Shown one piece after another: positions 12,478 through 30,450 of a stretch of DNA of 43,764 bases. The stretch covers positions 1-43,764 of the forward strand of contig NZVD01000018.1 in assembly GCA_002701385.1 (NCBI GenBank), in the 5' to 3' direction. Numbering within the stretch: position 1 is the stretch's first letter; each line of letters starts with the position of its first letter. The notes under the pieces are model-generated. The model was not told the origin of the DNA, made no database searches, and was given only the letters and a program-made list of their open reading frames with translations. The position numbers and the translations under genes are program-made. Source of the stretch: Rhodopirellula sp. (GTDB lineage Bacteria > Planctomycetota > Planctomycetia > Pirellulales > Pirellulaceae).

Positions 12478-15400
12478 ATGATCATTCGAAATTCAGGTTC
12501 ACTCCTTAAATCGATCCTCGTATTTGCCGCGGTTCTTGTATCTGCTCCTGCCAGTCAGGCCGCTGAATACACGCCGAATTTGGGAATATTGGAAATCCTG
12601 GCTAATCCGGCGACTCAGAATCAAACCGGTCTCTCGCCTGAGCTAACTGCGAAGTTTCAGGATCTCAAATCCCAGCGTCTCGAAATCTTTGATGCGTTGT
12701 ATGGAGAAAATTCAAAGGTAGAACAGGAAGTTGTGACCCAGGAATTTCGCCGAGCCTCAGAGCAGATGGCTTTAAGCCTCTTAACTGTAAGTCAACGCAC
12801 CAAGGTAAATCGTCTCCAATTCAACAAAGATGGGCTTGCATCCCTCCTGAAACCAGAAGTCCGCACTGCCATCAGCATTTCCGACAAGCAAGCAGCGGCT
12901 ATTCGTGCTCACATCAAACACCGTGATGAACTATCCGGAAATTCCACGGAAACAGAAGCAGCTCGACTCCACATCCATACTGAACGAAAACTGTATGCTA
13001 TCCTCAACAAAAACCAACAGCAGGATTGGAACCGTTTGACAGGACTGGACGAGAAATACGTCGCCTTCCTACAGGACACCCCCGCTGCCACGCCAGCAGA
13101 GTCTGAAAATTCGGACGAAAAACCAGCTGAGCCTGCGACGGAAACCTCCGAAAAAGCTCCGGCTGAAACTCCAACCACCGAAAAGCCATCAACAGACTCC
13201 CCCAAAGAAGAATCTGCGGATACCCCCAACGAAACCCCTGCAAATAAAGAGACGCCAGCAGCCGAAACTACAGAAGAGCCGGCTGACACTGACGCCCCAG
13301 TCCCTGCAGAACCCACTGAGACTCCGACCGTCACGCCAGAGGCGACCGGGACTCCGTCCAATGATAGTCAGTCCATGCTGAATGAATTTGGTGAGATTGA
13401 AGTGCGGTTCGCTTTCAATTACACCCCATGGGGCGATGTTATTGAGTGGTTTGCCGAGTTGAATGAACTATCTCTTCAAATGGATGCCACTCCAGAGGGA
13501 AGCTTCAATTATTCAGACCCACGTTATTACAGCCCAGCTAAAGCAATGGACCTAATGAATGGTGTTTTGCTAACTCGTGGCTACACGCTGGTAAGACGCA
13601 ATCAGATGCTGCTGGTCGTCAATTTGGAAGATGGAGTGCCAGACGTTCTAGTGGAGTATGTACCCCTCGAGGACCTGGACTCGCGTGGTGAATACGAACT
13701 GGTGAAAACGCTATTTCAATTGGTTAAAATGACTCCCGAAGAAGCTACGGCTGACTTGCAGAAGCTGATTGGGCCAACCGGACAACTCTACGTCTTTCCT
13801 GCAGCCAAGCAGGTCCTTGTCCAGGAACAAGCAGGTCGTCTTCGCACCATCCGAGACATTATCGAAGGGGTTGAAAAACCTCGCGGAGAATTAGCAAGCA
13901 AAGTAGAGGAAATCGAACTCGAATTTGTGACCGCAGAAGATATCTTGATGGTCGCACGAACCATGCTGAACATGAGCGAAGATTCTTTCGCCCGCGAAGG
14001 CCTGAGTTTTGCAGTCGACACACTCGGCACTCGCATCTTCGTTACTGGAGAAGAAGAAAACATCGCTGTCTTAAGAGACCTCGCGGAACGCTTAGACAAA
14101 GACCCACTTGAAGGTATGGAAGCCGTAGATGTGGAACAACCCCAGTTGCAAACGCACCTAATCAACGTTGCTGACCCACAGACTACATTCGACGTCCTTC
14201 AGACTCTATTGGCCGGCTTGCCCGATGTCAGACTTGCACTCGATCCGGCAACTAACAAGGTTATCGCGTTGGCCCGCCCGTCCGAGCAAGCACAAATCGT
14301 CGCAACAATTAAAGAGCTTGAAGGCGACGTCCCTGTATTTGAAGTGATTTCATTGCAAACACTTGATCCAGAAATGGCATTGGCCATGATCGCAAATATG
14401 TTTGGAACGACCACCACTGAAGAAGGTGTAGAAGTGACTCAGGGGCCTAAGGTTACCGCTGACCCAGTTTCCATGAAGCTCTTTGTCCGTGCGACCGAAT
14501 CAGAAGTAACTTCGATCCGGACGATGATTGAACGGTTGGAAGCTGAAAACACAACAACGCAGGAAGGGAATATTCGCATCCTGCCCTTCAGCGGCCAGAG
14601 TGCCGAAGACGCACTTGAGCGGGCTGGACGCTTCTGGACGGGCGAAAACAAGATTCGACTGGTCACCCCAAGTGATCGAGGTGAATCGAACATACAAAAA
14701 CGAACCACGGAAGAGCCGCAGGAACAGACGGAACCTCCAACGACAGATGCGCCAGCGGTGAAACCGACGAAAACGGATGTATTGAACAAATCCGCTAAAA
14801 CTGACGACGGAAAAATCCAATTCATTAGCAGTTCACTGCAGGACGACAACACAATCACCTCCCGCATAGGCAACGACATTGTCGTGGAACTTACGCCTGA
14901 TGGTATTATTATCGCGAGTGACGATACCGATGCTTTAGATCGCTTTGAAAGCCTTTTGCGCCAGCTCATACCTCCGGGAACCACCCTCACGGATCGTCAG
15001 ATCACCGTTTTTTACCTCAAATACGTGAAGTCCGATGTCGCGAAGTCCCTCATCCAGGAAATCATGAGTGGTGGCGCGGACTCCACAGATGGACTTGGTT
15101 CTTTGGTTAGTGACGCCACGAGCAGTTTAATGGGTGGCGGTCTAATGGGAATGATCCTCGGTGGTGGCGGTGACAGTGGATCCGGTGACTCATCGACCTT
15201 TTCCGCCACAGGAACAGTAAGTATCGTTTCCGACCCCCGCCTCAATGCCCTCGTTGTTCAAGCAAATGACGAAGACCTCGCCATGGTGGATTCCCTATTG
15301 GGGATTATCGACAAAGAAGGATCGGAAACGGAAGTTGAAACGCAAGGCAAACCACGACTGATCCCTGTCACCTATGTTAGTGCTAAGGACATAGCCGACA

Positions 15401-15984
15401 TACTCAAAGAGGTATACTCTGGCCGAGTTAACGGCGCATCGAGCGGTCAACAGCAACAGCGGCAACCAAGCCCTGAAGATCTGATCCGAGCATTGCGAGG
15501 CGGAGCGGGCGGAGGACGCGGAGGCCAGCAGCAAGCGGCTAAAAGTGAACCTGCGAAGCTCAGCATCGGGGTCGATGAAACCAGCAACTCAATTATCGTT
15601 TCAGCTCCTGAACCGCTCTTCAAGGAGGTCGAAGAGTTGGTAATGACACTTGATCAAGCGGGTACTCAAACCCAACAGCAAATCGAAGTTCGAACGCTAC
15701 ATCTTGCCAACCCAGACGTGGTCAACACTGCTTTACAAGCGATTCTCGGTGATTCAGTGTCCACTTCATCGAGCTCAGGCGGTAATAGCGGTTCATCTGC
15801 GGGACAATCCGGCGGTGGAAACCCTGCTGCATCCGCTGAAGCGATCCGACAACGAATCCAGGCATTCCAGGAAGCTGCCAGACGTGCTGCTGAGGCTCGT
15901 GGTGGAGGAGGAGCACCTGGTGGAGGTGGACGTCCCGGTGGATTCCCTGGTGGGGGTGGTCGCCCCGGTGGTGGCGGACGCTAA
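12478..15984 (+). CDS. Secretin-like protein with N0 and tandem N domains but no barrel
   Basis: The start at ATG 12478 gives a signal peptide (ILVFAAVLVSAPASQAA) and 1,168 aa. The open frame from 12307 would bury it. Residues about 30-200 are helical. Residues about 203-300 are a Thr/Glu/Pro-rich linker. About 306-390 read as an N0/STN-type domain. Then come NolW/secretin_N-like modules beginning near 392, 476, 557, 620, 700, 842 and 960. A last one at about 1069 ends after its first strand and helix and passes into a Gly/Arg-rich tail (1140-1168). No secretin barrel domain follows. It is first in the operon, 44 bases before gspE, so it should be a periplasmic part of the outer-membrane channel. 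The pairing with the secretin at 26569 is inference. Confidence 0.87.
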   Translation: MIIRNSGSLLKSILVFAAVLVSAPASQAAEYTPNLGILEILANPATQNQTGLSPELTAKFQDLKSQRLEIFDALYGENSKVEQEVVTQEFRRASEQMALSLLTVSQRTKVNRLQFNKDGLASLLKPEVRTAISISDKQAAAIRAHIKHRDELSGNSTETEAARLHIHTERKLYAILNKNQQQDWNRLTGLDEKYVAFLQDTPAATPAESENSDEKPAEPATETSEKAPAETPTTEKPSTDSPKEESADTPNETPANKETPAAETTEEPADTDAPVPAEPTETPTVTPEATGTPSNDSQSMLNEFGEIEVRFAFNYTPWGDVIEWFAELNELSLQMDATPEGSFNYSDPRYYSPAKAMDLMNGVLLTRGYTLVRRNQMLLVVNLEDGVPDVLVEYVPLEDLDSRGEYELVKTLFQLVKMTPEEATADLQKLIGPTGQLYVFPAAKQVLVQEQAGRLRTIRDIIEGVEKPRGELASKVEEIELEFVTAEDILMVARTMLNMSEDSFAREGLSFAVDTLGTRIFVTGEEENIAVLRDLAERLDKDPLEGMEAVDVEQPQLQTHLINVADPQTTFDVLQTLLAGLPDVRLALDPATNKVIALARPSEQAQIVATIKELEGDVPVFEVISLQTLDPEMALAMIANMFGTTTTEEGVEVTQGPKVTADPVSMKLFVRATESEVTSIRTMIERLEAENTTTQEGNIRILPFSGQSAEDALERAGRFWTGENKIRLVTPSDRGESNIQKRTTEEPQEQTEPPTTDAPAVKPTKTDVLNKSAKTDDGKIQFISSSLQDDNTITSRIGNDIVVELTPDGIIIASDDTDALDRFESLLRQLIPPGTTLTDRQITVFYLKYVKSDVAKSLIQEIMSGGADSTDGLGSLVSDATSSLMGGGLMGMILGGGGDSGSGDSSTFSATGTVSIVSDPRLNALVVQANDEDLAMVDSLLGIIDKEGSETEVETQGKPRLIPVTYVSAKDIADILKEVYSGRVNGASSGQQQQRQPSPEDLIRALRGGAGGGRGGQQQAAKSEPAKLSIGVDETSNSIIVSAPEPLFKEVEELVMTLDQAGTQTQQQIEVRTLHLANPDVVNTALQAILGDSVSTSSSSGGNSGSSAGQSGGGNPAASAEAIRQRIQAFQEAARRAAEARGGGGAPGGGGRPGGFPGGGGRPGGGGR

Positions 15985-16028
15985 AACCTGTATGCAGATA
16001 CGCAAAATTATTAGAAAAGAGTACTATA

Positions 16029-17729
16029 ATGGAAGCATGCGTAATACTACGGGATAGGGGCCTCCTTAATGACACCCAGGTGGACACAATCGTCCAGACT
16101 GGCGTGAAAGGCAACGAGCAAATTGCGAGCGCTATTTCATTAGGCTTTGTTGAAGAACGACAAGCCTTACAGGCGGTCGCTGAAGCGATTGGCGTGGACT
16201 TCGTCGACTTACGCGAAACAGAGGTTGACCTCGGGTTACTGGACGAATTCCCCACACGATTGATCTATCGTGAATCCCTATTCCCCGTCGCGGCACAGAA
16301 CGGTCACATTACCGTTGCCACTAGCGATCCTTTCAATCTCTATCCGCTTGACGAGGCTTCTGCAGCCACAGGCAAAGCCATCCTCCCTGTTGTTGCGACG
16401 CAACGTGATATCGACACGCTAATCAAAAATCATCTTGGCGTTGGAAGTGAGACTATTGACAGTCTCGTAGCAGCTAGGCAGACCGACGAAGTCGAGTTGC
16501 TCGAGGAACTGGAGATAGATGGTTCCGAGCTGTCAGAAATGGCCCAGGAAGCCTCGGTTATTCGACTCGTAAACGAAATCCTTCTGGAAGCGATTGAATC
16601 AAGAACAAGTGACGTCCATATCGAATCACAGGCAAGTGGCATTTCCATACGGTACCGTATTGATGGGATGCTCCACCCCCAACCGGTACCCCCTGAGATT
16701 AATCAGTTTCAGGCAGCGATCATCAGTCGCCTTAAGATTATGGCAAGATTGAACATCGCAGAAAAACGACTGCCGCAGGACGGCCGGATTAAGCTTAAAG
16801 TTCGCGGTCGGGAAGTCGACATTCGTGTGAGTGTGATCCCAATGATTCATGGCGAAGGGATCGTCATGCGTATCCTCGATAAAGGTGCGATGGTCTTCGA
16901 CCTCCAAAGCCTGGGGATGGAAGCAGATACCTACGCAACTTTTAGCGAACTCATTCGGATCCCACATGGTATCGTATTAGTCTGTGGTCCGACCGGGTCC
17001 GGTAAAACCACGACCCTCTACAGCTCTCTGATGGAAATCAAGGGACCCGACAACAAAATCATTACTACAGAAGATCCGGTTGAATACCAGCTCGACGGTA
17101 TCAACCAGATTCAGGTTCATTCACGTATCGGGTTGACCTTCTCTGCCTCGCTGCGGAGCATCCTGCGTCATGACCCGGACATCGTCCTGGTCGGTGAAAT
17201 TCGTGACCTTGAAACAGCCGAAAACGCCATCCAAGCATCCCTTACCGGGCATATGGTATTTTCTACACTCCATACAAACGACTCTGCCGGCGCGTACACT
17301 CGTATGACCGACATGGGAGTTGAACCTTTCCTGGTTGCCAGTACCGTCGAAGCCGTAATGTCCCAACGTCTGGTTCGTCGTCTCTGTAACACCTGTAAAC
17401 AACCGGTCAATCTTGACGACATAGACCTACCACATGATTTTCCACGAGATCAGGTTGATGGTGACATCTTCTCCGCCACGGGTTGTCGGGAATGTCGCAA
17501 CGTCGGGTATTCCGGCCGACTTGGAATCTACGAATTGATGCTTACAACTGACGAAGTTCGGGATCTGGCAACGCAAAACGCAAGTAGTTGGGAGCTAAAG
17601 AAAATTGCCGTACGCAACGGAATGAAGACCTTGCGAGATGATGGTTGGCGAAAAGTAATCGCCGGCAAAACCAGCCTTGATGAAGTCCTGCGAATCACTA
17701 AAGGCGACCAGATCGTTCCGGCTTCCTAA
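16029..17729 (+). CDS. gspE: Type II secretion / type IV pilus assembly ATPase GspE
   Basis: The 566-aa cytoplasmic ATPase contains an N-terminal MshEN/T2SSE_N domain (about 1-140). The core has the Asp-box region RTSDVHIESQ, Walker A GPTGSGKT (residues 320-327), and Walker B within DIVLVGEIRD (about 384-393), followed by the His box STLHTNDSAG. A zinc-binding tetracysteine insert is complete (C453, C456, C486, C489). It powers pseudopilus assembly at the inner membrane together with GspF and GspL. The MshEN part lacks the clear arginine-led RLG motif of c-di-GMP binders, so nucleotide sensing is doubtful. It lies between the secretin-like gene and gspF. Confidence 0.96.
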   Translation: MEACVILRDRGLLNDTQVDTIVQTGVKGNEQIASAISLGFVEERQALQAVAEAIGVDFVDLRETEVDLGLLDEFPTRLIYRESLFPVAAQNGHITVATSDPFNLYPLDEASAATGKAILPVVATQRDIDTLIKNHLGVGSETIDSLVAARQTDEVELLEELEIDGSELSEMAQEASVIRLVNEILLEAIESRTSDVHIESQASGISIRYRIDGMLHPQPVPPEINQFQAAIISRLKIMARLNIAEKRLPQDGRIKLKVRGREVDIRVSVIPMIHGEGIVMRILDKGAMVFDLQSLGMEADTYATFSELIRIPHGIVLVCGPTGSGKTTTLYSSLMEIKGPDNKIITTEDPVEYQLDGINQIQVHSRIGLTFSASLRSILRHDPDIVLVGEIRDLETAENAIQASLTGHMVFSTLHTNDSAGAYTRMTDMGVEPFLVASTVEAVMSQRLVRRLCNTCKQPVNLDDIDLPHDFPRDQVDGDIFSATGCRECRNVGYSGRLGIYELMLTTDEVRDLATQNASSWELKKIAVRNGMKTLRDDGWRKVIAGKTSLDEVLRITKGDQIVPAS

Positions 17730-17750
17730 CCTCTCAATCAAAGCTCATTC

Positions 17751-18956
17751 ATGCCCGATTTCCAATACACTGCCCGCGATGCCACAGGAAAAAAGGTAGC
17801 AGGCAAAATTGCCGCCGCTACTGAACGGGAAGCCGTACGCCTACTTGCTGGTCAATCGCTATTTCCCTTGAACATCTCCACCGATGTCAAAGCGACGGCC
17901 CGTAAGAGCAGCAAACGCGTAAAAGGGCAGGTAATGGCGCAAGTCTACGGCCAACTAGCGTCGCTCCTAAGAAGTGGAGTGCCCCTTCTGCGTAGCCTCA
18001 AAGTCCTACAAAAACAAGCGTCTAATGAAACGCTCTCCTTTGTACTCGGCGAAGTCCACAGGCAGGTCGAAGAAGGTATCAACATTGCAGACGCAATGGG
18101 GCAATACCCCAAAGTCTTTAGCGAAGTCTGCATAAACATGTCACGCGCGGGAGCGGAGGGTGGATTTCTAGAAGACGCGCTCGATCGAGTCGCCACCTTC
18201 ACCGAACAGCAGGAAGACCTCAAAGGAGAAACCATGGGCCAACTGGCCTATCCGCTATTCTTAGGAACTGTGGGATCCCTTCTGGTCGCAGGGCTCATCA
18301 TATTCTTTGTCCCTAAATTTGGTGACATGTTTGATAATCTCCGGGAGCGTGGCGAACTGCCGGCCATCACTGACCTTCTACTCGCATTTAGCGAAAAGCT
18401 GCGAACGATCTGGGCGGGTATTGGCTTAGGGATCGCATTTGCAGGGGTCCTGCTTATTAACAAACACTTACAGACAGATCATGGAAAACGACAACGCGAT
18501 TTGATTAAGATTAAACTTCCGCTGGTAGGCAAGGTATTCCTGGCTTTTGCCGTCGCACGATTCTGTCGCGTCCTGGGAACTTTGTTGCAAAACGGAGTGC
18601 CAATCTTAAAATCACTTGAAATCAGCAGCCAGGCGGCAGGCAACCGAATTATTGCCAAGGCTATTGACGATGCCACGGATAATATTACAAGCGGTGAGTC
18701 GCTATCGAAACCATTAGGTGGAAGTGGATATTTTCCCGTCGCCGTGGTGGAAATGATTTCAGTGGCAGAAGAGTCGAACACTTTGGATAGAGTACTAATA
18801 GAAATCGCCGATAATCTCGAAAAACGGACGACTCGTCAGCTTTCGCTAGCGGTCCGCTTGCTCGAGCCCATTATGCTTCTGGTCATGGCTGCAGCCGTGC
18901 TTGTCGTCGTAATCGCGTTATTGTTACCAGTGATCAAAATGAGTAGTGCAATCTAA
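17751..18956 (+). CDS. gspF: Inner-membrane platform protein GspF
   Basis: The 401-aa protein has the family layout: an N-terminal beta part (MPDFQYTARDATGKKVAGKI), two repeated T2SSF helical domains (about 65-190 and 270-395), and transmembrane segments near 170-190, 220-240 and 375-398. The first domain carries LLRSGVPLLRSLKVL and the second LLQNGVPILKSLEIS, the duplicated signature of the family. GspF/PilC is the polytopic platform that links the ATPase to the growing pseudopilus. It starts 21 bases after gspE ends. Length is standard. Confidence 0.96.
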   Translation: MPDFQYTARDATGKKVAGKIAAATEREAVRLLAGQSLFPLNISTDVKATARKSSKRVKGQVMAQVYGQLASLLRSGVPLLRSLKVLQKQASNETLSFVLGEVHRQVEEGINIADAMGQYPKVFSEVCINMSRAGAEGGFLEDALDRVATFTEQQEDLKGETMGQLAYPLFLGTVGSLLVAGLIIFFVPKFGDMFDNLRERGELPAITDLLLAFSEKLRTIWAGIGLGIAFAGVLLINKHLQTDHGKRQRDLIKIKLPLVGKVFLAFAVARFCRVLGTLLQNGVPILKSLEISSQAAGNRIIAKAIDDATDNITSGESLSKPLGGSGYFPVAVVEMISVAEESNTLDRVLIEIADNLEKRTTRQLSLAVRLLEPIMLLVMAAAVLVVVIALLLPVIKMSSAI

Positions 18957-19050
18957 GGATTTCCACGAAACTTTTGCTTACAATCTTAGTTTAATACACA
19001 TAAACCTTACTTAGTTAACTGGGCTTATCCCCTGAGGACCATTTAGAGAA

Positions 19051-19485
19051 ATGCAAACGAAAAAATACCAACGAAACCAACGACGTCGCAAGGGTTTTAC
19101 ACTGATGGAAGTCCTGATTGTGATGGCAATCCTCGTGGTGCTCGGCTCCATGGTTGTAACACAATTTGGTGGGATTTTATCCAAGAGCAACTCCGACAAC
19201 GCAATGATCCAAATGCGGTTATTCCAAAAACAACTCAAATTCTACAAGGCTCATGTTGGTTCTTACCCTCCAACAGAAGCAGGTTTGGATGCGTTGATCA
19301 ACGCACCTGCTAACGCCCCGCAAGGAAAGTGGAATGGCCCGTACATGGAAGCGGCTGAAGTGCCGACCGACCCCTGGGGAAATCAATACACCTATTCTTC
19401 AGACGGCAAGACATTCACCATCGTCTCAAATGGCGAAGATTCCCAGGAAGGCTCGGAAGACGACGTCACTCTGGAGGGACTCTAA
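19051..19485 (+). CDS. gspG: Major pseudopilin GspG
   Basis: The 144-aa protein has the prepilin peptidase site RRRKG/FTLMEVLIVMAILV, with Glu at position +5 of the mature form, and a single N-terminal helix. The C-terminal part is the classical GspG fold: YKAHVGSYPPTEAGLDALI, WNGPYMEAAEVPTDPWGN, YTYSSDGKTFTIVSNGED. The acidic residues near the end fit the calcium site known in GspG. This is the main subunit of the pseudopilus that pushes substrates through the secretin. About 94 bases separate it from gspF, more than between the later pseudopilin genes, which leaves room for its own ribosome site or an internal promoter. Confidence 0.96.
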   Translation: MQTKKYQRNQRRRKGFTLMEVLIVMAILVVLGSMVVTQFGGILSKSNSDNAMIQMRLFQKQLKFYKAHVGSYPPTEAGLDALINAPANAPQGKWNGPYMEAAEVPTDPWGNQYTYSSDGKTFTIVSNGEDSQEGSEDDVTLEGL

Positions 19486-19514
19486 TCCCCGCCTCACAAC
19501 ACTCCGAGTAAATC

Positions 19515-20258
19515 ATGAAGACTATAAAGTGTAAAATGCGCCGCACTGTGAAAACAACTGCGGCCGCTTTTACACTTTTTGAACTTCTGATTGTGCTGGC
19601 TGTAGTGGTTATCCTTTCCGCCGTTGCCTACCCCACCATACGTTCCATCGTCGGTTCGGAATATCTCACCTCTGGCGGAGACCAGGTCAGGATTCATTTT
19701 GCCCAAGCGCGAAACCAAGCGATCCGCAGCGGCCAAACGCTTTCTCTTCGATACGAAATTGCAGGCAAGCGATATCTGATTGAACCCTGGACAACCGGAG
19801 ATGAGTTTCTAGAAGCTGGGATGACAAGCGACACTCAACCCCAAGTCAATCTAATGGGTATGGGTGCCGTTGAAGCTGAACCGAATCCCAATCACGTCAT
19901 TGAGAAACTGGTTGGGCAAGTACATACGTTACCAGAGGACATTACTTTTGCCGGCTCAGTCCAGTCTTTCGATGCACGCCAGTCCATTCTGGGCGATGCC
20001 AGCTACAACGAGCTAACCGAGGTTGCAGGCCTTCAAAGTGCCACTGATGGAATTGCCGGTACCTGGTCAGACCCTATCTTATTCTATCCCGATGGGAGTA
20101 CCACTCAGGCGGAGGTTCGCCTTGCCAATGACTCCAAGCAGGCTTTTGTGATGGTACGAATCCGGGGATTAACCGGCGTGTCCTACGTTTCCAACGTCGT
20201 CACGGCCGAAGAACTGCAACAACTCGATATCCAGAGAGCCTCTTCGCAAAACCAATGA
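19515..20258 (+). CDS. gspH: Minor pseudopilin, GspH-like
   Basis: The 247-aa protein carries a type III signal (TAAAFTLFELLIVLAVVVIL), with Glu at +5 and one N-terminal membrane helix, then a beta-rich C-terminal domain with a GspH-like start (QVRIHFAQARNQAIRSGQTLSLRYE). The residue at -1 is Ala instead of the usual Gly; prepilin peptidases are known to tolerate Ala at -1, so cleavage is still plausible. It overlaps the following gspI by four bases (ATGA), a translational coupling signal repeated at the next two junctions. It is assigned to H by position between G and I and by size. Confidence 0.85.
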   Translation: MKTIKCKMRRTVKTTAAAFTLFELLIVLAVVVILSAVAYPTIRSIVGSEYLTSGGDQVRIHFAQARNQAIRSGQTLSLRYEIAGKRYLIEPWTTGDEFLEAGMTSDTQPQVNLMGMGAVEAEPNPNHVIEKLVGQVHTLPEDITFAGSVQSFDARQSILGDASYNELTEVAGLQSATDGIAGTWSDPILFYPDGSTTQAEVRLANDSKQAFVMVRIRGLTGVSYVSNVVTAEELQQLDIQRASSQNQ

Positions 20259-21690: not shown

Positions 21691-23342
21691 TTTCCAAACT
21701 CGCCTTCCGCAGGCTACGCGGCTCAGCCCTGTTAATCGTTTTAGTGGTTGTCATGATAGTGTCACTTGGGGCATATACGTTTTCCGAGTTGATGTTGACG
21801 CATAATGAAACCGCGAACCTATCGACCCAAAGCATGCAGGCGAAATGGCTGGTTGACGCCGGCATCGACGTCGCCAGAATCCATCTATTACAACCGCATG
21901 ACCAACGCATGGCGTCCGGTGGTGACTACGACAACCCGAATGTATTTCAAGCGATTAACGTACTGACTGACCCAAATCCGGAACTCACCGGGAATTTCAC
22001 CATCATCGCACCTGGACAAGACAGTGATGGCTTTACTGCCGGTTATCGCTATGGACTTGAAGACGAATCCTCGAGGCTCAATCTGAACGCACTCGTGGTT
22101 GCCGACACTTATTCGACTAATGGGGGCCGTGAAATGCTCATGGCTTTACCAGGCATGACTGTTGACATCGCCGATGCAATCATGGACTGGATTGACGACG
22201 ACGATGAAACTCGTGAATTCGGCGCCGAGTTCGATTACTACCAAAGCTTGGGATCACCCTACGAGCCCAACAACGGCCCCTTCAACACCGTGGAAGAAAT
22301 CTTACTCGTCCGTGGTGTCACCCCTGAAATGTTGTTCGGGGCAGACATCAATCGCAACGGGATGATCGATCAACACGAACTTCCTGCTCAGCAAAAGATT
22401 CAAGAACTGGTTTCTCTCGCATCTGCGACCAATGGAACGGATACCTTAAATACCGGTTCGCTCGATCGCGGTTGGAGTGCTTATCTGACACTATACAGCA
22501 AAGAAAATAATCTGAATGTAAACGGTGAGCCCCGAATTGACCTGAATTCAAGTGACCTGCAAACTCTACATCAGGATTTAGCTGCCGTGTTTGATCCGGC
22601 TGTTGCCAATTTCATCATTCTCTACAGGCAAGGATATCCGGTCTTTGAACAGGGCGACAACCAAACTGATGGCCTCCCTCAACCCGCCTCTGCAGTCGAG
22701 ATTGATTTCCTCCTCGAACCGGAGCGAGAAATCACGCAGGTTCTAGAATTGGTCGGTAAACAGTTACTCTGGGAACCTGATCTGATCGATGACGAACCAA
22801 TCGATATCATGCCTGCCTACCCTATGGACTTAAGCCTGGCTACGACGCTCGACCGCCTAATGGACAATGCTTCCACTAACTCTAACCCAACCATTCCCGG
22901 ACGACTAAATATTAATCAGGCCCCTCGACTGCTACTACAAGGAGTCCCGGGACTGTCTGACGATATGATTGATTTCATCATACAAACTCGTTCCGTCGAC
23001 CCCTATCAGGACCAGCAAAATTACTATCGCCACGAGACCTGGTTACTCAAACAGGCGGGACTCAGTTTCCTGCTTGGGAACGCTCCTTTTACGCTCGACG
23101 ACATGAAGGCATTGCAGCCGTTCATTTGTGGTGGCGGAAGTGTTTTTAGAGCACAAATCATAGGCTATTACGAAGGTGGGACAGCTTCCGCAAGAGGTGA
23201 AGTCGTCCTAGACGCTACAACCGTTACACCACGTATTCTTTTGTGGCGTGACCTAAGCCATTTAGGCCGTGGATATCCCCTGGACGTGCTAGGCTTACAT
23301 TACGCTGGTAGCGGTCAAACCGCCCTACCCGCTATTCAATAA
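21687..23342 (+). CDS. gspK: Minor pseudopilin GspK
   Basis: The 551-aa protein begins LRRLRG-like (FRRLRG/SALLIVLVVVMIVSLGAYTF). It lacks Glu at +5, as is normal for GspK, which caps the pseudopilus tip. The periplasmic part has SRLNLNALV, then MALPGMTVDIADAIMDWIDDDDE, and near the end LNINQAPRLLLQGVPGLSDDMIDFII. These are the two SAM-like/helix-hairpin-helix regions of the T2SSK family. An acidic stretch IDDDDE and a DINRNGMIDQHEL segment resembling an EF-hand-like calcium loop are notable. The length is greater than usual (about 320 aa). Confidence 0.92.
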   Translation: MISKLAFRRLRGSALLIVLVVVMIVSLGAYTFSELMLTHNETANLSTQSMQAKWLVDAGIDVARIHLLQPHDQRMASGGDYDNPNVFQAINVLTDPNPELTGNFTIIAPGQDSDGFTAGYRYGLEDESSRLNLNALVVADTYSTNGGREMLMALPGMTVDIADAIMDWIDDDDETREFGAEFDYYQSLGSPYEPNNGPFNTVEEILLVRGVTPEMLFGADINRNGMIDQHELPAQQKIQELVSLASATNGTDTLNTGSLDRGWSAYLTLYSKENNLNVNGEPRIDLNSSDLQTLHQDLAAVFDPAVANFIILYRQGYPVFEQGDNQTDGLPQPASAVEIDFLLEPEREITQVLELVGKQLLWEPDLIDDEPIDIMPAYPMDLSLATTLDRLMDNASTNSNPTIPGRLNINQAPRLLLQGVPGLSDDMIDFIIQTRSVDPYQDQQNYYRHETWLLKQAGLSFLLGNAPFTLDDMKALQPFICGGGSVFRAQIIGYYEGGTASARGEVVLDATTVTPRILLWRDLSHLGRGYPLDVLGLHYAGSGQTALPAIQ

Positions 23343-23362: not shown

Positions 23363-25111
23363 ATGGCTAAATTCGTCGCATATGAATGGGATGATCAGTC
23401 AGTACGCGCAATTTCGGCATCCGCAAAAGGAGCAGATCTAGCTATCCACGGATTAGTGGAAGAAGCTATCCAACCCGCTAGTGAAGATGTCGACGCCGAA
23501 GCCTCGCGTGAAAATGCTATCTCCAACGCACTTGCGTCGGTTGGAGTAGGTCGTGGGCAAGCCGTTGCGTTTTCCGCTCGACGCTCGCAGACCGAAGTTC
23601 GCATGCTTGTGTTTCCCGATATCCCGGAAAGCGAGTTACCGGACCTAGTCCGCATTCAAGCACCGACCATCTTCAATGCGGGTGACGATGGGCTGCTGGA
23701 CTTCACTCCCCTAGGTGAACTCCAGGATGGCCAGCGTTATATCGCAGCCGCCGCGATCGAAAATGACACCCAGGTGGATATTATCAGCAGTGCAGCTGCT
23801 GCGGGTGTGACGATCGGTAACATGACGCTTCATCCGTTTGGCAGTGCATTTTACGTAGAAAAATACCTTCCGTCGTCGACGGCCCGGCTCATTGTGGAAA
23901 TCCTGGGCGTAGAAGCAGAACTAACCGTTGCTCGTGATGGCGTCGCTCACCTGGTCCGCACAATCCGACTTGTACCAGATTCACCGGATCTAAACTACAT
24001 TTCTTCCGAAGTTCGCCGTACGCTAACCAGCTATGAAAATCAGCCTAATGGCGGAGACGTCACGCAAATTGTGGTCGTTGGCAATGAAGCGATTCATCAA
24101 GAGCTATCTGATTTACTGTCCTCACTTGTAGACGAACCCGTCGAATTGTTTAATCCCGTTACGCATGCGTCCATAGATTCGACCGCTAGAAGCAATATGC
24201 CTAACAACGCTTCAGTATTTCTCGGTCTCATGGGCTGTGTGACTCAACTGGCCAACAATGAAATCCCTGCAATTGACTTCCTGCACCCAACGCAGCCACC
24301 AAAACAGACTGCTGGCCGTGACAGAGCGGTAAAATTGGGGAGCTATGCGGTTGCCGCCCTAGCTGTGATCGCTATTGCATTATGGTACCCAGTTAAATCA
24401 AAGAAAGACACCATCGCCGAAAAATACCAATTGGCTGGCCAAGCAGTCTCCCTCACTCCTCAAATGATTAAGACGCAGGATGAGAAAAACAAAATACTCG
24501 CATCTAAACTTGGCACAGTTGACGACTTCTCTAGCAATACGGTTAGCTGGCTAAATGAAATTGCTTACTTGTCCGACACGCTCCCTCAGGACCCAAATGA
24601 TGTAATCATCAATGGTTTCTCGGCACGGATCAATCAAAACCGTTCCGGCCAAAATGCAAACGTTAAAGCGAGACTTACATTAGATACGCTTTTACGGGAC
24701 GCCTCGCTCCTTAACACGATGACTACCTCGATTCGCAACCCATTACATGCGATCTCTAATAATGGCTTGCAGGAAACTCCGGATACCCCACCCTACACCC
24801 GAAAAACGCTACAGCTCATCGACCTTCCGCTTGTTGAACCGGAAACAGAGATTTCGGAAGAGACATCCGTCGATACGCAACCTACGCCCGAATCAGAGCC
24901 CCAACAAAAAACTGTCGGCAACGTAGCCGAAGACGGCGAAACTGATCGAAACCCAACAACAGATGAAGCAAAAGCAACGTCACCGCAAACGGAATCTGAC
25001 CCTACCAACAAGCCCAATCCGACCACGGAAGAATCCAAGGACGAAGCGGGGGATACAGAGAGACTCAATGATTCTAAATCCCCCGAATCGATCGACAATT
25101 CAGGAGTTTAG
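23363..25111 (+). CDS. gspL: GspL-type protein (PilM-PilN-like fusion)
   Basis: The 582-aa protein starts after a strong AAAGGA ribosome site. Residues about 1-310 form a PilM/GspL-type actin-like cytoplasmic domain (start FVAYEWDDQSVRAIS; strand ARLIVEILGVEAELTVARDG). One transmembrane helix follows (about 324-343, LGSYAVAALAVIAIALWYPV). Then comes a PilN-like periplasmic part (WLNEIAYLSDTLPQDPNDVIINGF). The last 95 residues are an acidic Thr/Glu/Pro-rich tail without predicted fold. GspL recruits the ATPase GspE to the inner membrane and pairs with GspM. The next gene begins two bases after this stop. Confidence 0.88.
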   Translation: MAKFVAYEWDDQSVRAISASAKGADLAIHGLVEEAIQPASEDVDAEASRENAISNALASVGVGRGQAVAFSARRSQTEVRMLVFPDIPESELPDLVRIQAPTIFNAGDDGLLDFTPLGELQDGQRYIAAAAIENDTQVDIISSAAAAGVTIGNMTLHPFGSAFYVEKYLPSSTARLIVEILGVEAELTVARDGVAHLVRTIRLVPDSPDLNYISSEVRRTLTSYENQPNGGDVTQIVVVGNEAIHQELSDLLSSLVDEPVELFNPVTHASIDSTARSNMPNNASVFLGLMGCVTQLANNEIPAIDFLHPTQPPKQTAGRDRAVKLGSYAVAALAVIAIALWYPVKSKKDTIAEKYQLAGQAVSLTPQMIKTQDEKNKILASKLGTVDDFSSNTVSWLNEIAYLSDTLPQDPNDVIINGFSARINQNRSGQNANVKARLTLDTLLRDASLLNTMTTSIRNPLHAISNNGLQETPDTPPYTRKTLQLIDLPLVEPETEISEETSVDTQPTPESEPQQKTVGNVAEDGETDRNPTTDEAKATSPQTESDPTNKPNPTTEESKDEAGDTERLNDSKSPESIDNSGV

Positions 25112-25113
25112 TC

Positions 25114-26349
25114 ATGGAAGCAAGAGAAAAACTATTAGGCGCAGCGTTAGGTCTAATGATTATTGCCTGGGCCCTCATTTCAGGCATCGGCCAGTATACT
25201 GACCTGCTCGCTGAACTAGACGAAGAGGCACAAGAGGCTGACATCAAAGTAATTGATTACCTTGACCTACTTGAAGATTTCCAAGAAGACTCTACAGACT
25301 ACGAATTATTACTTAATAAATCTCTTGGGTCTGACATCAATGTAGCACTTAACGACTACAAGGCCTGGCTGGTGGAACTGCTGGAAGGTGACTTGGAAAT
25401 TTCCAACTATGACATTAAGAACGAACCACCGCGTGATGTGGACAACATATACACCAGCCTGGGAATCCGCCTCAATGCGACTGGCTCCCTTCAGCAAACA
25501 ACCAAGCTACTATATCTGTTTGAAACCAAGCAATTGCTACATCGCATCAAAGATTTGACGGTTACACCAACCGGATACAATCAATATCAACTGGTATTGG
25601 CTATCGAAGCAATCGCGATGACTGAAGCACCATCCAAAACCGATGTAACCGCAGTGGCCCATTCAGAAACATTAAACGGCGAAAGCTACGAAGATTACTG
25701 GACTAGGATTTCCAATCGCAACTTCTTTGGTCCGGAAAATAAAGAACCAACGTTTACACCGCCACCAATAGCGGCAACCGTGGGCGAGAAAACATCACGA
25801 ACACTCACCGCGAGTGCTGGCGTCAACGAACAAAACGTACAAAATGTCGTTTTCGAATTGGACGAGGATTCAATCCCGCCGAATTTCGTCGCGACCCTAG
25901 CAGGAAATAGCCTGACGGTATCCAGTGAAGACGTCGGCACCTATCGATTTAATGTCAAAGTTACCGATAACGGTCTGCCAGCGAAAACAATTACACGGGA
26001 ACTTGCAGTTACCGTAAACGAGAAACAGGTGCCGAAGCCCGCGGAACTGAAGCCGGAACCACCTAAGCCACCTGAATTCAACGTGGCACAACTTGCATTT
26101 TTCACAAGCACAGTCGAAGTGAACGGTCGAGTTCAGGTCTGGATCCATCGACGAGATTTGGGGGAAATCCTCAAACTACCGCTTGGATCCAAAATCGAAA
26201 TTGGTGCGATTCGGGGCACCATCCATGACGTAGATCAACGATATCTGACCATTCTTACCGAGAATAAAGACCTTCTTGAAATCAAGGCGGGTAAGGCTCT
26301 AAGTACAGCCGAAAACATTACCTCTCAAGCGGAAAGCCTCCTCCCGTAG
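25114..26349 (+). CDS. gspM: GspM/PilO-like protein with cadherin-like and GspC/PilP-like domains
   Basis: The 411-aa protein has an N-terminal helix (about 7-28), a coiled-coil-like stretch, and a PilO/GspM-type domain with IRLNATGSLQQTTKLLYLFE as its signature strand-helix. About residues 208-305 form a cadherin/He_PIG-like beta domain ending YRFNVKVTDNGLPAKTITRE. After a Pro-rich hinge, about 328-405 (VAQLAFFTSTVEVNGRVQVW to IKAGKALS) has the strand and glycine pattern of the GspC homology region or PilP. No separate gspC occurs in the locus, so this domain could replace it; that is inference. The ribosome site AGGAG lies within the end of gspL. Confidence 0.83.
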   Translation: MEAREKLLGAALGLMIIAWALISGIGQYTDLLAELDEEAQEADIKVIDYLDLLEDFQEDSTDYELLLNKSLGSDINVALNDYKAWLVELLEGDLEISNYDIKNEPPRDVDNIYTSLGIRLNATGSLQQTTKLLYLFETKQLLHRIKDLTVTPTGYNQYQLVLAIEAIAMTEAPSKTDVTAVAHSETLNGESYEDYWTRISNRNFFGPENKEPTFTPPPIAATVGEKTSRTLTASAGVNEQNVQNVVFELDEDSIPPNFVATLAGNSLTVSSEDVGTYRFNVKVTDNGLPAKTITRELAVTVNEKQVPKPAELKPEPPKPPEFNVAQLAFFTSTVEVNGRVQVWIHRRDLGEILKLPLGSKIEIGAIRGTIHDVDQRYLTILTENKDLLEIKAGKALSTAENITSQAESLLP

Positions 26350-26379
26350 GGAAATAGGCAACCTAAGAACTCTACGCTA

Positions 26380-26423
26380 GCGAGTAAAGCTTTAACCAGA
26401 TGGCTTTACTCGCTTTTTCTTTG
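26380..26423 (+). terminator. Strong intrinsic terminator after gspM
   Basis: An 11-bp perfect stem (26380-26390 with 26403-26413, arms GCGAGTAAAGC and GCTTTACTCGC) encloses a 12-base loop and is followed by TTTTTCTTT. It lies 30 bases after the gspM stop and closes the first secretion transcript, so the downstream secretin needs its own promoter. Confidence 0.93.
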
Positions 26424-26568
26424 TTTAAAGGCTGAAGGTGCCTGCGGGTTATTCCGATTGTAATGAACATAACGGGATGTGCGCTTATGGTATGCCTGCG
26501 CAGAACTGGCAGGGACGCCTGTTTGGTAATAATTAGGCAATAGAAAAACCCAATTGAGAGACACGGAA

Positions 26569-29500
26569 ATGGAATTCCCAGTGAAAAGTTTTATTCACAA
26601 AGCTATTACATACGTTGCAGTTGTAATGTTGCTTACTTCAGTACCGCTCTTTGCACAAAATGCGTCAGTTAGTTCGACAGTACTGCCTGTCAAAAACACC
26701 GAAGCACCAGCATTAGCCAGTCGCCTTCAGTCGGTATTACAAGATTTCGGCATCAGTGCCCAAGTGACTGCTGACCGAACAACCAATTCGCTAATCGTAA
26801 ATGGCTCTTCCAACGCTCACAAGATTGCGGCGGACCTATTAAGAACACTTGACAAACCTATTGCGAAACAAGTTCCGCAACCGCAACAGGCTGGTTCGAA
26901 AGTGGTTGGGTATAGCGTGCCTTTAAACCAAATTGCAGATATTTCCCAAAAGATCCAGGCTGCGTTTGCCAATCAGCAGGAGGTTAAGGTTGTCCCCGAC
27001 GCTCGTACTGGGCAGATCGTTGTCATTGCTGGTGACACCGTGCACAGACAAATAACTCAGTACTTGGATACAATCAAACCGGCACCTCAAACTAATGTAC
27101 TGCCAGTCTCTAGTCCGACGAAACAAGCCGGCCACCAACTACTAAGTATTGACTCCAAGCAGTTCGAGGCTTCTGTACAGAGCATGTTTGGCGGAAACCT
27201 GAGGGTCACTACTAATCAAGATGGGAGTATTGCTAACATTGTTGTTCCGTCCCGAACCGGCAATGGTGCAGTACTTCAAGTTAACCGAGCCACAAATACA
27301 ATCAGTGTACAAGGCAATTCTGTCGCCCAACAAGCTTGGCTAAAGATTGCAACCCTGCTCGACACCCCAGCCACCGGAGAAGATGACCGCACCGGAATCG
27401 TGCCTGTCGAAAAGGCTAACCCCAATACCGTCAAACGTGCGGTGACATTGGTAGAAGACGCTGAAAAGGCGTCGAGCAATACTAATCGTGCGTTGCAAAA
27501 GTCGACCGAGCGAAAGGCATGGGGTGGTGATTTAGTAAGTTCCATCTTCAATCAAAACACTGTCGCTACTCAAGAGCCGGTCGGGGAGGAGCGCAAGCCT
27601 GCTGACGATGAGGAAATCGGCGAAACGCTACTGCAAATCGAACCAAGTGAGGCTGGATTACTAGGTCCTGTGCAGATCGAATTCGTCGAAGGGCTCGGGG
27701 TATTTATTATCAAAGGCCAACGGGACGACGTTGCGAGGGTCATTGAAATCATTGAGCAAATTGAACAGCGAACTAGTGAGACCCAGCCTTCGATACAAAT
27801 CCACCACTTAAGTCACGTCGACAGCAACGTAATTACCGAACTCATTGACGAATTGTACGATGATGTGTTTGGTTCGCGTAATAGTAGCGTCAGCATCACA
27901 GCCCTAGACAAACCTAATGCTTTATTGCTTATTGGACGCAACGAAAGCATGTCCGCCATCATGGACCTCATTACCAAACTAGACCAGCCCGTGAGGCCTG
28001 ATACCCAGTTCCAAATCTTCCCATTGCAACATATGTCAGCGTTGGATGCCGAACGACAAATCCGCTCGTTTTACACCAATCAGCCTGGTGGAGACGAAGA
28101 GCAACGTCCCGGCCTCGGTGTTCGCCCGCGAGTCATTGCGGATTATCGCACCAACAGCCTTATCGTTCACGCTGCCCCTAGAGATGTTTCTGAGATTGCA
28201 GCTCTTCTTGAACGGCTCGATATCGAAGAGTCTCCGGCAACCAACCAATTACGAGTATTCCGGCTCAAGAATGCACTTGCTGCTGACTTACAGCCAGTGC
28301 TACAGGAAGCCATGACTGGCATAGCTGCCGACCAAGGCGGTAATAACCAAGGCAGCACTGCCACGATTAGTCCTCAGTCATCGAAGTTAGAAATCCTGAC
28401 GATCAATTCTGACGGTGAAAGCAAAGTTGACTCCGGGATTCTGGCTGGTGCCACTGTGACTGCAGATGAGAATGTAAATGCTCTTGTTGTACGAGCTCCG
28501 GCAACCGCCATGCCGTTAATTCAAGAACTCATTAATCAACTTGACCAACTCCCTAACGCGGAAGCGCAGATTAAGGTTTTTCAGGTCGAAAATGGGGATG
28601 CTATCAATCTCACCCAATTACTACAGGAACTCTTTGGGTTGCAAGTTACTGCAGGCTCAAACGCCAGCAGCAACGCCTTCAATTCAGCCCTGAGATCCGG
28701 TGGTGGGGGAATCGGCGGAGGAGAGTCCTCACTGGTACCCCTTAGGTTCGCCGTTGACCAGCGAACCAACAGCGTAATCGCCTCCGGTTCAGAATCGGAT
28801 CTCGATATCGTAGAGCTTCTTTTGTTACGCCTTGATGAAGGCGACATCCAAACGCGACGCAGTGAAGTGATTCGCTTAAAAAATGCGGATGCTGCGTCGG
28901 TAGGTCAGACGCTTCAGAATTACGTCAATACTCAAAGACAACTCCTTACTCAATCCTTTAGTCAGCAGACCAGTATAGCCAATTACGAGATCGAGGAAAC
29001 GGAAGTGGTCGTAGCTTGGGATGTTGCTAGTAATTCTGTTATTATCTCAGCGCAACCCAAAACCTTTGACACACTCGCTGCTCTGGTCGAAGAATTGGAT
29101 TTTGAACCTGACATGGTGATGATACAAGTTATCATTGCGGAGGTTGAACTAAATGACGGCTTTGAGGCCGGGGTTGAACTTGGACTTCAGGATAGCCTAC
29201 TCTTCGATCGAGGAGCATCCACCAATGGTTTTGGTTGGCACGGTCAGGCCCTAGGGAATGACCCTGGAGCAACCGCCTCCCGTGAAAGTCTAGCGGGCCA
29301 AGTGATTTCAGGGTTTGGCATGGGGCGTAATAGTGCTGCACTAGGATACGGCGGATTAGCTGTGAGTGCGGCCAATGAGTCGATTCATATAATGATGAGG
29401 GCTCTACAGGACCGCGGCCGCCTACAAATCCTGAGCCGTCCGCAAATTATGACCTTGGATATGACTGAAGGATTCGTCCAAGTCGGCTCTGACATCCGTC

Positions 29501-30450
29501 AGATTACCGGTAGTCAGGCTAATCAGTTTGGAGGCATTACCAACACGTCGGAGCCGGTTTCCATTGGTTTACTGGTAAATGTTAGGCCAAGGGTCACGGT
29601 CGACGGTCGCATCGTCATGGTTGTCGGTGCCGAAAAGTCCGAATTAGGAGAAGCGATGTCCGGGACGGTAGTTGGTATAAATCCCGATGGACAGGCGGTA
29701 ATGGCCGCACCCATTAACAAAACGACCGCCGAGACAGTCGTTAGTGCACGCGATGGAGAAACTGTTGTCTTCGCGGGCCTGATTACCAAAGACAAAGCTG
29801 TCGCTAGACGCAGTGTACCATTGCTTGGAGACCTACCTGGCATAGGGGGACTATTCCGCTATGACACCGAAACCGAGAAACGCAAGGAACTTCTCATCAT
29901 CATGACTCCTCATATTGTCCGCGGAAAGGACGATGTTGACCGAATCAAGGAACTAGAAACCGAGCGTATGAGCTGGCTACTTTCAGATCTCACTGAGATC
30001 CACGGAGATGCAGGCTTTGATGCCGGTCGGGGCTTCTGGGGCGAGGCAGGCACCGTTATATACCCAGATGATGATCCATCTGGCTCACTTCTCGACCACG
30101 CCTTTCCAAGTACGATGTTGAAACCGGCATTAGGGCCTAATAATGGAACGCAGCTTCGCGGAAAACGAATTCACCAAGGAAGCGGTACACCACGAGCAAT
30201 GCAGGGTAGGCCATTCATTCCCCAGCACCATCAGGGCCCTGCTCCAACAGACGGTAGGCCAATGCCTGCCCAGACACTGCCAGTGCCGCAAGCTCCTACC
30301 AGCAATCAAAACCGCTATCTTCCTGTTAGCAACGTTGAACCAAGCCAGCGGATTTCGTACAATCCTCCAGCTCAGCAATGGGAGAATGGGCAGTTGAGAC
30401 GAATCCCCCCTCAAACCCCGGGGACTTATACAACCCCAGTCAGCCGCTGA
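26569..30450 (+). CDS. gspD: Giant secretin GspD with expanded N-domain array
   Basis: The ATG at 26569 gives a signal peptide (ITYVAVVMLLTSVPLFAQ) and about 1,293 aa, twice the usual 650. In-frame starts at 26554 (TTG) and 26581 (GTG) are possible. NolW/secretin_N-like modules begin near 33, 112, 189, 363, 410, 481, 560, 668 and 765. The C-terminal secretin barrel (about 845-1120) has the usual signatures: MVMIQVIIAEVELNDGFE, ILSRPQIMTLD, VSARDGETVVFAGLITKD and RRSVPLLGDLPGIGGLFR. A Pro/Gln-rich tail of about 150 residues follows. It forms the outer-membrane pore of the secretion system. No N0-type domain is evident at its N-terminus; the protein at 12478 has one. Confidence 0.94.
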   Translation: MEFPVKSFIHKAITYVAVVMLLTSVPLFAQNASVSSTVLPVKNTEAPALASRLQSVLQDFGISAQVTADRTTNSLIVNGSSNAHKIAADLLRTLDKPIAKQVPQPQQAGSKVVGYSVPLNQIADISQKIQAAFANQQEVKVVPDARTGQIVVIAGDTVHRQITQYLDTIKPAPQTNVLPVSSPTKQAGHQLLSIDSKQFEASVQSMFGGNLRVTTNQDGSIANIVVPSRTGNGAVLQVNRATNTISVQGNSVAQQAWLKIATLLDTPATGEDDRTGIVPVEKANPNTVKRAVTLVEDAEKASSNTNRALQKSTERKAWGGDLVSSIFNQNTVATQEPVGEERKPADDEEIGETLLQIEPSEAGLLGPVQIEFVEGLGVFIIKGQRDDVARVIEIIEQIEQRTSETQPSIQIHHLSHVDSNVITELIDELYDDVFGSRNSSVSITALDKPNALLLIGRNESMSAIMDLITKLDQPVRPDTQFQIFPLQHMSALDAERQIRSFYTNQPGGDEEQRPGLGVRPRVIADYRTNSLIVHAAPRDVSEIAALLERLDIEESPATNQLRVFRLKNALAADLQPVLQEAMTGIAADQGGNNQGSTATISPQSSKLEILTINSDGESKVDSGILAGATVTADENVNALVVRAPATAMPLIQELINQLDQLPNAEAQIKVFQVENGDAINLTQLLQELFGLQVTAGSNASSNAFNSALRSGGGGIGGGESSLVPLRFAVDQRTNSVIASGSESDLDIVELLLLRLDEGDIQTRRSEVIRLKNADAASVGQTLQNYVNTQRQLLTQSFSQQTSIANYEIEETEVVVAWDVASNSVIISAQPKTFDTLAALVEELDFEPDMVMIQVIIAEVELNDGFEAGVELGLQDSLLFDRGASTNGFGWHGQALGNDPGATASRESLAGQVISGFGMGRNSAALGYGGLAVSAANESIHIMMRALQDRGRLQILSRPQIMTLDMTEGFVQVGSDIRQITGSQANQFGGITNTSEPVSIGLLVNVRPRVTVDGRIVMVVGAEKSELGEAMSGTVVGINPDGQAVMAAPINKTTAETVVSARDGETVVFAGLITKDKAVARRSVPLLGDLPGIGGLFRYDTETEKRKELLIIMTPHIVRGKDDVDRIKELETERMSWLLSDLTEIHGDAGFDAGRGFWGEAGTVIYPDDDPSGSLLDHAFPSTMLKPALGPNNGTQLRGKRIHQGSGTPRAMQGRPFIPQHHQGPAPTDGRPMPAQTLPVPQAPTSNQNRYLPVSNVEPSQRISYNPPAQQWENGQLRRIPPQTPGTYTTPVSR

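Follow-up and report, generated by a model that had tools for sequence, protein, structure and literature searches.

A putative two-chain secretin in a type II secretion-like operon of Rhodopirellula and its single-chain relatives in Planctomycetota

We analyzed a stretch of 43,764 nucleotides (referred to below as the window; contig NZVD01000018.1, or G000:C69:1-43764 in our numbering) from the Rhodopirellula sp. assembly GCA_002701385.1, a genome of 4.89 Mb in 100 contigs that is 99% complete. The window carries an operon resembling those of type II secretion systems (T2SS), in which the two characteristic ends of a secretin are encoded by separate genes. The protein encoded at 12478-15984, designated N0arr, combines an N0 domain with an array of NolW-type modules and has no barrel; the protein encoded at 26569-30450, designated Dbig, combines a second module array with the secretin barrel and has no N0. 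Both reading frames are open at these coordinates. We consider it probable that the two are exported parts of one divided secretin, stacked end to end in a T2SS-like machine and derived from a duplicated single chain. This reading draws on the domain content of the two proteins, the gene order, the co-occurrence of the two genes, their collinearity with a single-chain secretin, and a single change in N0 on the tree of barrels. Below, MC denotes the protein encoded at 25114-26349, and the prefixes G, L, and f mark genomes, loci, and families, respectively.

Domain content of N0arr and Dbig

The features of the two proteins are as follows.

12478..15984, + strand: N0arr, barrel-less protein with N0 and a NolW array, 1,168 amino acids (aa) (Pfam, AlphaFold2, structure comparison)
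12478..12564, + strand: putative signal peptide, cleavage near ...SQAA (by eye)
12586..13077, + strand: helical N-terminal domain, weakly LTXXQ/Spy-like (Pfam LTXXQ, E values of 0.67 and 0.27; helices in the AlphaFold2 model)
13387..13626, + strand: N0 domain, residues 304-383 (structure comparison, Foldseek, hhalign)
13690..15663, + strand: seven NolW/Secretin_N-like modules, residues ~405-1062 (six stretches in Pfam; seven by secondary structure of the model)
15673..15762, + strand: orphan half-module (beta-alpha only), residues ~1066-1095 (alignment; helix 1079-1090 in the model)
15763..15981, + strand: Gly/Arg-rich C-terminal tail, ending in -GR (tail comparison)
26569..30450, + strand: Dbig, secretin without N0, 1,293 aa (Pfam; N0 model)
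26668..29106, + strand: NolW/Secretin_N modules of Dbig, residues ~34-846 (eight stretches in Pfam; nine by eye; seven by the in-house model)
29401..29922, + strand: secretin barrel domain, residues 945-1118 (PF00263, 131.5 bits; cut-off, 27.5)

Pfam recognizes Secretin_N (PF03958) in six stretches of N0arr (152.7 bits; cut-off, 28.2) and finds no match to the Secretin barrel (PF00263). The secondary structure of the model, parsed by hand, yields seven beta-alpha-beta-beta-alpha modules followed by the orphan half-module. Against the GspD equivalog TIGR02517, N0arr scores 126.4 bits (cut-off, 351.35), with the best stretch at residues 350-550. The barrel is also absent from every N0-bearing frame among the matches listed in our survey of separate N0 proteins.

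The Pfam models of N0 (STN and type_II_gspD_N0) do not match N0arr, so that the presence of this domain had to be shown by structure. Residues 304-383 of the AlphaFold2 model align with the solved N0 of GspD from enterotoxigenic Escherichia coli (PDB entry 4jtm) with a Z score of 10.5 and a root mean square deviation (rmsd) of 2.1 over 80 residues of the 81-residue chain, and with GspD from its complex with GspC (3oss) with a Z score of 9.4. Residues 405-616 follow GspD N1-N3, with an rmsd of 10.7 over the three domains together. In Foldseek searches with the N0arr model, the top rows are N-domains of T2SS secretins (XcpQ N0-N1-N2; E value, 1e-10). The profile of N0-N1 is collinear with residues 25-182 of E. 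coli K-12 GspD in hhalign (E value, 3e-4; probability, only 39), and a search of PDB sequences with the N0 profile returned no GspD match. The mean predicted local distance difference test score (pLDDT) of the model is 59; in the N0 region, blocks of ten residues score from 65 to 84, dropping to 48 at the end of N0. Unrelated proteins can have N0-like folds too (a cyanophage baseplate row, for example, reaches a Z score of 8.2 in the same structure comparison), so the assignment to GspD is based on the top structure row combined with the GspD-like modules downstream of N0. The predicted structure confirms a GspD-type N0 domain in N0arr, and the N0, the seven modules, and the lack of a barrel all agree with the initial annotation, as does the signal peptide, which was seen by eye.

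Several further observations concern N0arr and its paralogs. The C-terminal residue is Arg in 20 of the 21 nonduplicate N0arr proteins shorter than 2,000 aa, 18 of which end in -GR; among the larger ones, left out of this count, the C terminus is -AR in L033 and -GR in L135. These two loci encode barrel-less N0 paralogs of 2,433 and 2,690 aa with ~20 modules each (L033 1226-8527 and L135 4771-12843). In G018, such a large paralog forms a second cluster, besides a 1,199-aa Dbig. A 700-aa frame in G304 (L150 3848-5950) shows an N0-like match near its C terminus (residues 532-616) and no barrel match. A stand-alone gene of 242-378 aa encodes the helical Spy/LTXXQ-like domain upstream of gspE in 25 of 80 loci (e.g., L067 3127-3864 and L070 1853-2590), and in G036 the domain is found in both forms, fused to N0arr and as a separate gene.

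In Dbig, Pfam detects Secretin_N in eight stretches (231.8 bits; cut-off, 28.2), and the score against TIGR02517, 339.6 bits, falls just short of the cut-off of 351.35 (best stretch, residues 665-1126). The first module begins near residue 37, too close to the N terminus for an N0 to fit upstream. A wide N0 model gives at most 2.6 bits to the window Dbig and to 31 Dbig frames from Pirellulales, some of them from the same genome. N0-bearing planctomycete secretins score 75-90 bits with this model, in whose training set they were included, and 29-59 bits with a narrower model built from barrel-less proteins alone. When the conserved modules of Dbig were compared with the N0-N1 profile, the alignment was confined to the modules of that profile, with a probability of 0.9 of 100. 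The description of this protein as eight to nine modules with a barrel and without N0 stands for the window. N0 is likewise not found in the 31 Pirellulales frames, and it is present in most of the orthologs from family f19 (see below). Of the four Secretin matches in the source genome, three (L002, L003, and L004) belong to secretins of other types. L002 has an STN-like N terminus, seen by eye, that is scored by neither Pfam nor the N0 model; the model thus does not catch every N0.

Co-occurrence, single-chain relatives, and history

In a near set of 40 genomes, the source genome included, we searched for N0arr and for Dbig-type proteins, defined as Secretin frames of at least 1,180 aa scoring at least 130 bits. 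N0arr matches were found in 33 genomes, or 32 after removal of G037, where the match is weak and covers only the N-terminal domain. A Dbig-type frame is present in 29 of these 32, with a Dbig-profile match also in G001 and G006, and no Dbig was found in the 8 near genomes that lack N0arr (among them G004 and G005, 69% and 89% complete).

For a wider survey, 294 planctomycete genomes of 90% completeness or more were drawn evenly from the phylum. Matches to the N0 profile were found in 84 genomes and to the Dbig profile in 50, all of them within the 84. The N0 match lies in a separate frame in 49 of these 50 genomes and in the same frame in one (G121). With the single-chain G121 left out, N0arr and Dbig are encoded within 25 kb of each other in 24 of 49 genomes. 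In the 34 N0-containing genomes without Dbig plus G121, N0 and the barrel share one frame in 31 of 35 cases; the other four are G066, G303, and G327 (different contigs) and G256 (two frames on one contig). Conceivably, N0arr (together with GspE-GspF) and Dbig could serve two different machines, their shared operon in the window being incidental. The 25 genomes without the pair inside 25 kb would fit this, as would several genomes that encode at least two N0-bearing proteins plus several secretins. However, the same operon is found in several genera as well as in the f19 genome G091, the two profiles co-occur in 50 of 50 Dbig genomes, and a single-chain form exists in family f21, which makes two separate machines quite improbable.

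In family f21, which belongs to the same class, N0 and the barrel are in one frame of 2,221-2,331 aa in each of the three drawn genomes where it was found; the fetched single chains are L143 10171-17157 (2,328 aa) and L144 6253-12780 (2,175 aa). The best matches of the N0arr profile in the 2,328-aa protein are at residues 64-273 (108.6 bits) and 338-1020 (149.9 bits), running through the orphan half-module and the Gly-rich stretch, and are followed by the best matches of the Dbig profile at residues 1131-1191, 1232-1372, and 1476-2069 (31, 79, and 492 bits). L144 shows the same order of N0arr and then Dbig matches. Judged from these alignments, the f21 chain would be fusion-type evidence that N0arr and Dbig act together and would serve as a guide to their order, which places N0arr on the inner-membrane side of the Dbig module stack.

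Much larger single chains are found in families f22, f74, f77, and f65, where one frame of 3,109-5,073 aa encodes both N0 and the barrel in 14 genomes. The seven that were fetched (L136 to L142, from G121, G064, G109, G260, G233, G189, and G214) have 3,575-5,073 aa, with N0, 36-49 modules as detected by the in-house model, and the barrel; in these giants, the leading match of the N0arr profile stops after the first modules. The Pfam model type_II_gspD_N0 matches one giant (E value of 1e-3, below the cut-off) and none of the f19 and f21 N termini tried. The initial annotation had offered, as one reading, that the barrel-less chain helps to span the wide planctomycete periplasm; as a trait of the phylum this does not hold, given that other families have one giant chain of up to ~5,000 residues.

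The narrower N0 model detects N0, at 29-59 bits, in 5 of 6 fetched Dbig proteins of f19 (the exception being G147), in both f21 chains, and in all seven giants. The Dbig of G223 also has N0 (45 bits), and this genome encodes a separate N0arr. At least 26 Dbig frames of f19 have an N0-only match among the matches listed, and in the f19 genomes G147 and G219 the one N0 match lies outside Dbig. Most f19 genomes thus encode a separate N0arr plus an N0-bearing Dbig, so that a clean division between N0 and the barrel is typical of Pirellulales and not of planctomycetes in general.

A tree of the barrels with their preceding modules (42 rows, midpoint root, duplicate loci of one genome left out) runs from the giants through f21 and the N0-containing f19 to an N0-less group consisting of Pirellulales plus G147 of f19. 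The difference in N0 is a single change on this tree: the N0-less group comprises 28 of the 42 rows, has support of 99/97, and appears in 98% of bootstrap trees. We infer that the change was a loss, given the midpoint root and the presence of N0 in the other groups. Simple gene fission is disfavored by the f19 genomes that have both N0arr and an N0-bearing Dbig. The most likely scenario is that a single-chain secretin underwent duplication, after which one copy lost its barrel and the other, in Pirellulales, its N0, resulting in a division of labor. The ancestral single-chain state would have been kept in f21 and, hugely expanded, in the other families. One duplicate would have been truncated within the loop of a module, its barrel being lost, to give N0arr, which ends in an orphan half-module and a Gly-rich tail. 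Its counterpart, Dbig, would have kept the barrel and later lost N0 in the lineage now found in Pirellulales. That orphan half-module and Gly-rich tail also make N0arr resemble a truncated copy, as expected of a functionless, decaying duplicate, but N0arr frames are intact in Pirellulales and f19, with conserved N0, modules, and C-terminal Arg, and in some genomes the protein has expanded to 2,433-2,690 aa. Decay is accordingly hardly credible.

The operon and its platform proteins

The gene order in the window is N0arr-E-F-G-H-I-J-K-L-MC-Dbig-lipoprotein, and the same arrangement, from N0arr to Dbig and the lipoprotein, is kept in several genera and in the f19 genome G091. The genes other than those for N0arr and Dbig are as follows.

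16029..17729, + strand: GspE-like ATPase (TIGR02533, 605.7 bits; cut-off, 630.25)
17751..18956, + strand: GspF-like platform protein (TIGR02120, 332.8 bits; cut-off, 424)
19051..19485, + strand: GspG major pseudopilin (TIGR01710, 105.4 bits; cut-off, 88.85)
19515..20258, + strand: GspH-like pseudopilin (Pfam GspH, 25.6; cut-off, 21)
20255..20719, + strand: GspI-like pseudopilin (TIGR01707, 24.9 bits, below the cut-off of 44.35; prepilin motif TIGR02532, 27.6, above 16.3)
20716..21690, + strand: GspJ-like pseudopilin (T2SSJ, 27.8 bits; cut-off, 28)
21687..23342, + strand: GspK-like pseudopilin (T2SSK_1st, 67.6 bits; cut-off, 26.2)
23363..25111, + strand: GspL/PilM-like protein (NF045709, 44.9 bits; PilM_2, 21.5; both below cut-off)
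25114..26349, + strand: MC, with a PilO/GspM-like domain, an Ig domain, and a C-terminal small beta domain, possibly similar to the homology region (HR) of GspC (AlphaFold2 and structure comparison)
30513..31421, + strand: lipoprotein, candidate pilotin (lipobox by eye; directly downstream of Dbig)

GspG passes the curated T2SS cut-off of TIGR01710. GspE and GspF miss the NCBIfam equivalog cut-offs, although these models are the best rows for each, and pass those of Pfam T2SSE (448) and T2SSF (188.8). A scan for promoters and terminators gave about as many sites as in shuffled sequences. The divergent neighbor on the minus strand (10694-12079) has an HEGVHQ motif, seen by eye, and is possibly a metalloprotease.

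The AlphaFold2 model of MC has a mean pLDDT of 90.4. Its residues 78-170 adopt the PilO fold (2rjz; Z score of 12.2 and rmsd of 1.8 over 91 residues), and an Ig domain covers residues 208-306, from which most rows in structure searches with the whole model come. The Ig/cadherin-like insertion (25735-26031 in the window) is present in some genera and absent in others. Pfam searches of 43 MC relatives at an E value of 0.05 detect T2SSM in 5 and PilO in 2, with neither in the window MC, and at 1e-3 the PilO family is not detected in the source genome. The idea that the C-terminal beta domain of MC is an HR domain of the GspC/PilP type was tried in three ways. Neither T2SSC nor PilP was among the best 25 of 30 families for the 43 MC proteins at an E value of 0.05; PDB sequences gave no PilP or GspC match, the top rows being designed repeat proteins, which we took as chance matches; and hhalign against K-12 GspC did not confirm it. 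An HR-like nature of this domain is a guess. The same applies to a pilotin role of the lipoprotein, proposed from its position and lipobox. A homolog of the lipoprotein follows Dbig in those Pirellulales and f19 loci that have enough flanking sequence, even where Dbig lies away from the operon, and no such gene was detected next to the single-chain secretins.

Proposed joint assembly, known systems, and meaning

In T2SS, the N0 of GspD meets the platform protein GspC, N1-N3 form stacked rings, and the C domain forms the pore (PMC8134430). By analogy, N0arr would provide the platform contact and the lower rings, and Dbig the upper rings and the pore. Dbig would form the outer-membrane barrel together with an upper ring stack, N0arr a lower ring stack with the N0 ring as the contact to the inner-membrane platform, and the two stacks would lie end to end around the pseudopilus, N0arr below Dbig. 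The partner of N0 may be the PilO-like MC protein.

It is also possible to see N0arr as a periplasmic T2SS adaptor or scaffold, engaging substrate, peptidoglycan, or platform without lining the channel, with Dbig as the sole conduit. The Spy/LTXXQ-like helical domain, a separate gene elsewhere, and the long acidic and Pro-rich linker are unlike a ring subunit; by domain content, the Dbig proteins of most f19 genomes, which have their own N0, are complete secretins; and in several genomes N0arr is encoded with gspE or gspE-gspF and Dbig elsewhere. On the other hand, N0-N1-N2-N3 of N0arr align in order with GspD, the protein aligns collinearly with the lower portion of the single-chain f21 secretin, and an N0 match is found in every surveyed Dbig genome. 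We regard an adaptor role as unlikely and favor the divided secretin.

Several points weigh against a divided secretin. Joint assembly of N0arr and Dbig is supported by comparison rather than by direct evidence of contact. The pair is not within 25 kb in 25 of 49 genomes (on different contigs in 13 and apart on one contig in 12). In 3 of the 32 N0arr-bearing near genomes no Dbig was found; all three are drafts of 400-600 contigs and have other secretins. G007 (600 contigs) has just two N0arr fragments, and in G012 (400 contigs) the contig ends inside gspK, but for G034 (420 contigs, 94% complete) fragmentation gives no evident excuse. As most f19 Dbig proteins have their own N0, N0arr would be an addition there and not a replacement. 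In the f21 chain, each profile also has weaker matches in the half assigned to the other, as repeated modules would; examples are residues 682-932 for the Dbig profile (42.7 bits) and residues 1492-1669 for the N0arr profile (47.8 bits). The direction of the N0 change depends on the midpoint root, and the N0 tree (37 rows, duplicates removed), which is unresolved and has its outgroup on a very long branch, cannot confirm the order of events. The full-length N0arr model is low in mean confidence, and no counterpart of the GspC HR domain, which would be expected to bind N0, was found with Pfam, PDB sequences, or hhalign on MC. The joint assembly put forward in the initial annotation thus gains from the co-occurrence and the f21 collinearity, but the contact itself is inferred and the pair is often apart.

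Like N0arr and Dbig together, the GspD proteins of known T2SS (E. coli K-12 GspD, XcpQ, and PulD) have N0, NolW-type modules, a barrel, and gspE-K neighbors, and the N0 fold is the same as in the enterotoxigenic E. coli protein. They differ in being one chain of ~650 aa that carries N0 plus three modules, as opposed to two chains with ~2,460 aa and ~16 modules and with N0 and the barrel on separate proteins. The initial annotation was correct in this respect for E. coli K-12 GspD, a 650-aa protein with N0, three Secretin_N domains, and Secretin.

The Legionella protein DotD belongs to a type IV secretion system, and we know of no NolW array in either DotD or the Xanthomonas protein VirB7. Both resemble N0arr in having the N0 fold on a barrel-less secretion protein (PMC3093366; 3ady, 6gyb, 2l4w, and 3ov5), and VirB7 differs from it in belonging to a type IV secretion system (PMC3093366). 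In the mitochondrial T2SS, the secretin is likewise placed on separate polypeptides, GspD and GspDN1-3, the barrel part being without N0, and a yeast two-hybrid signal has been reported between GspD and GspDN1 (PMC8134430). A divided secretin as a principle is therefore not new. The mitochondrial split, however, is reductive (single modules or halves), with no N0 anywhere and no GspC (PMC8134430), whereas in the window, in a bacterium, both parts are enlarged and N0 is kept. A long stack is found in PilQ of Thermus thermophilus, whose complex of 350 Å has six rings and is described as spanning most of a wide periplasm; it differs in being a single chain of 757 residues with six ring domains (PMC5745081), as against ~16 for the window pair or 36-49 detected modules for the seven fetched giants.

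A literature search, mostly of best-ranked open-access papers, returned nothing on the architecture of planctomycete secretins, split or giant. The main text of Denise et al. 2019, as far as available, does not name Planctomycetes (PMC6668835); two secretins are listed for an anammox bacterium, with no architecture given in the available text (PMC3422733), and the accessible part of PMC11131199 had nothing further on secretins. Within this partial coverage, we found no description of N0 and barrel on separate bacterial chains, of such enlarged arrays, or of single-chain giants.

With an assumed rise of 25-40 Å per ring, the channel would measure ~40-65 nm for the Pirellulales pair and ~90-200 nm for the giants. 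In Planctopirus limnophila, crateriform complexes, extrapolated to about 104 per cell, have been described. At least some of them are linked to the inner membrane and seem to anchor it close to the wall, and 12-nm fibers are found on some (PMC5394234). The appendage bases of other planctomycetes have been compared with the T. thermophilus pilus machine (PMC8303584). We offer, very tentatively and as a somewhat doubtful proposal, that planctomycete secretins form conduits far longer than those described so far, with ~16 rings on two chains or 36-49 modules on one, and are candidates for the crateriform complexes, tied to the inner membrane via the separate N0 protein where it is present. P. limnophila lends itself to genetic work, and deletions of three putative pilQ genes have been made in it (PMC11958385).

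If the divided secretin is real, a secretin, usually seen in bacteria as a single homo-oligomeric chain, could be split into a ring protein on the inner-membrane side and an outer-membrane pore protein, and its length could be tuned by the addition of modules. The series of short, giant, and mid-size single chains, duplicated forms, and complementary split would allow the job of each part to be read. The pair suggests an unusually long, two-part secretion tunnel, and it makes the composition of the crateriform structures of planctomycetes a testable question.

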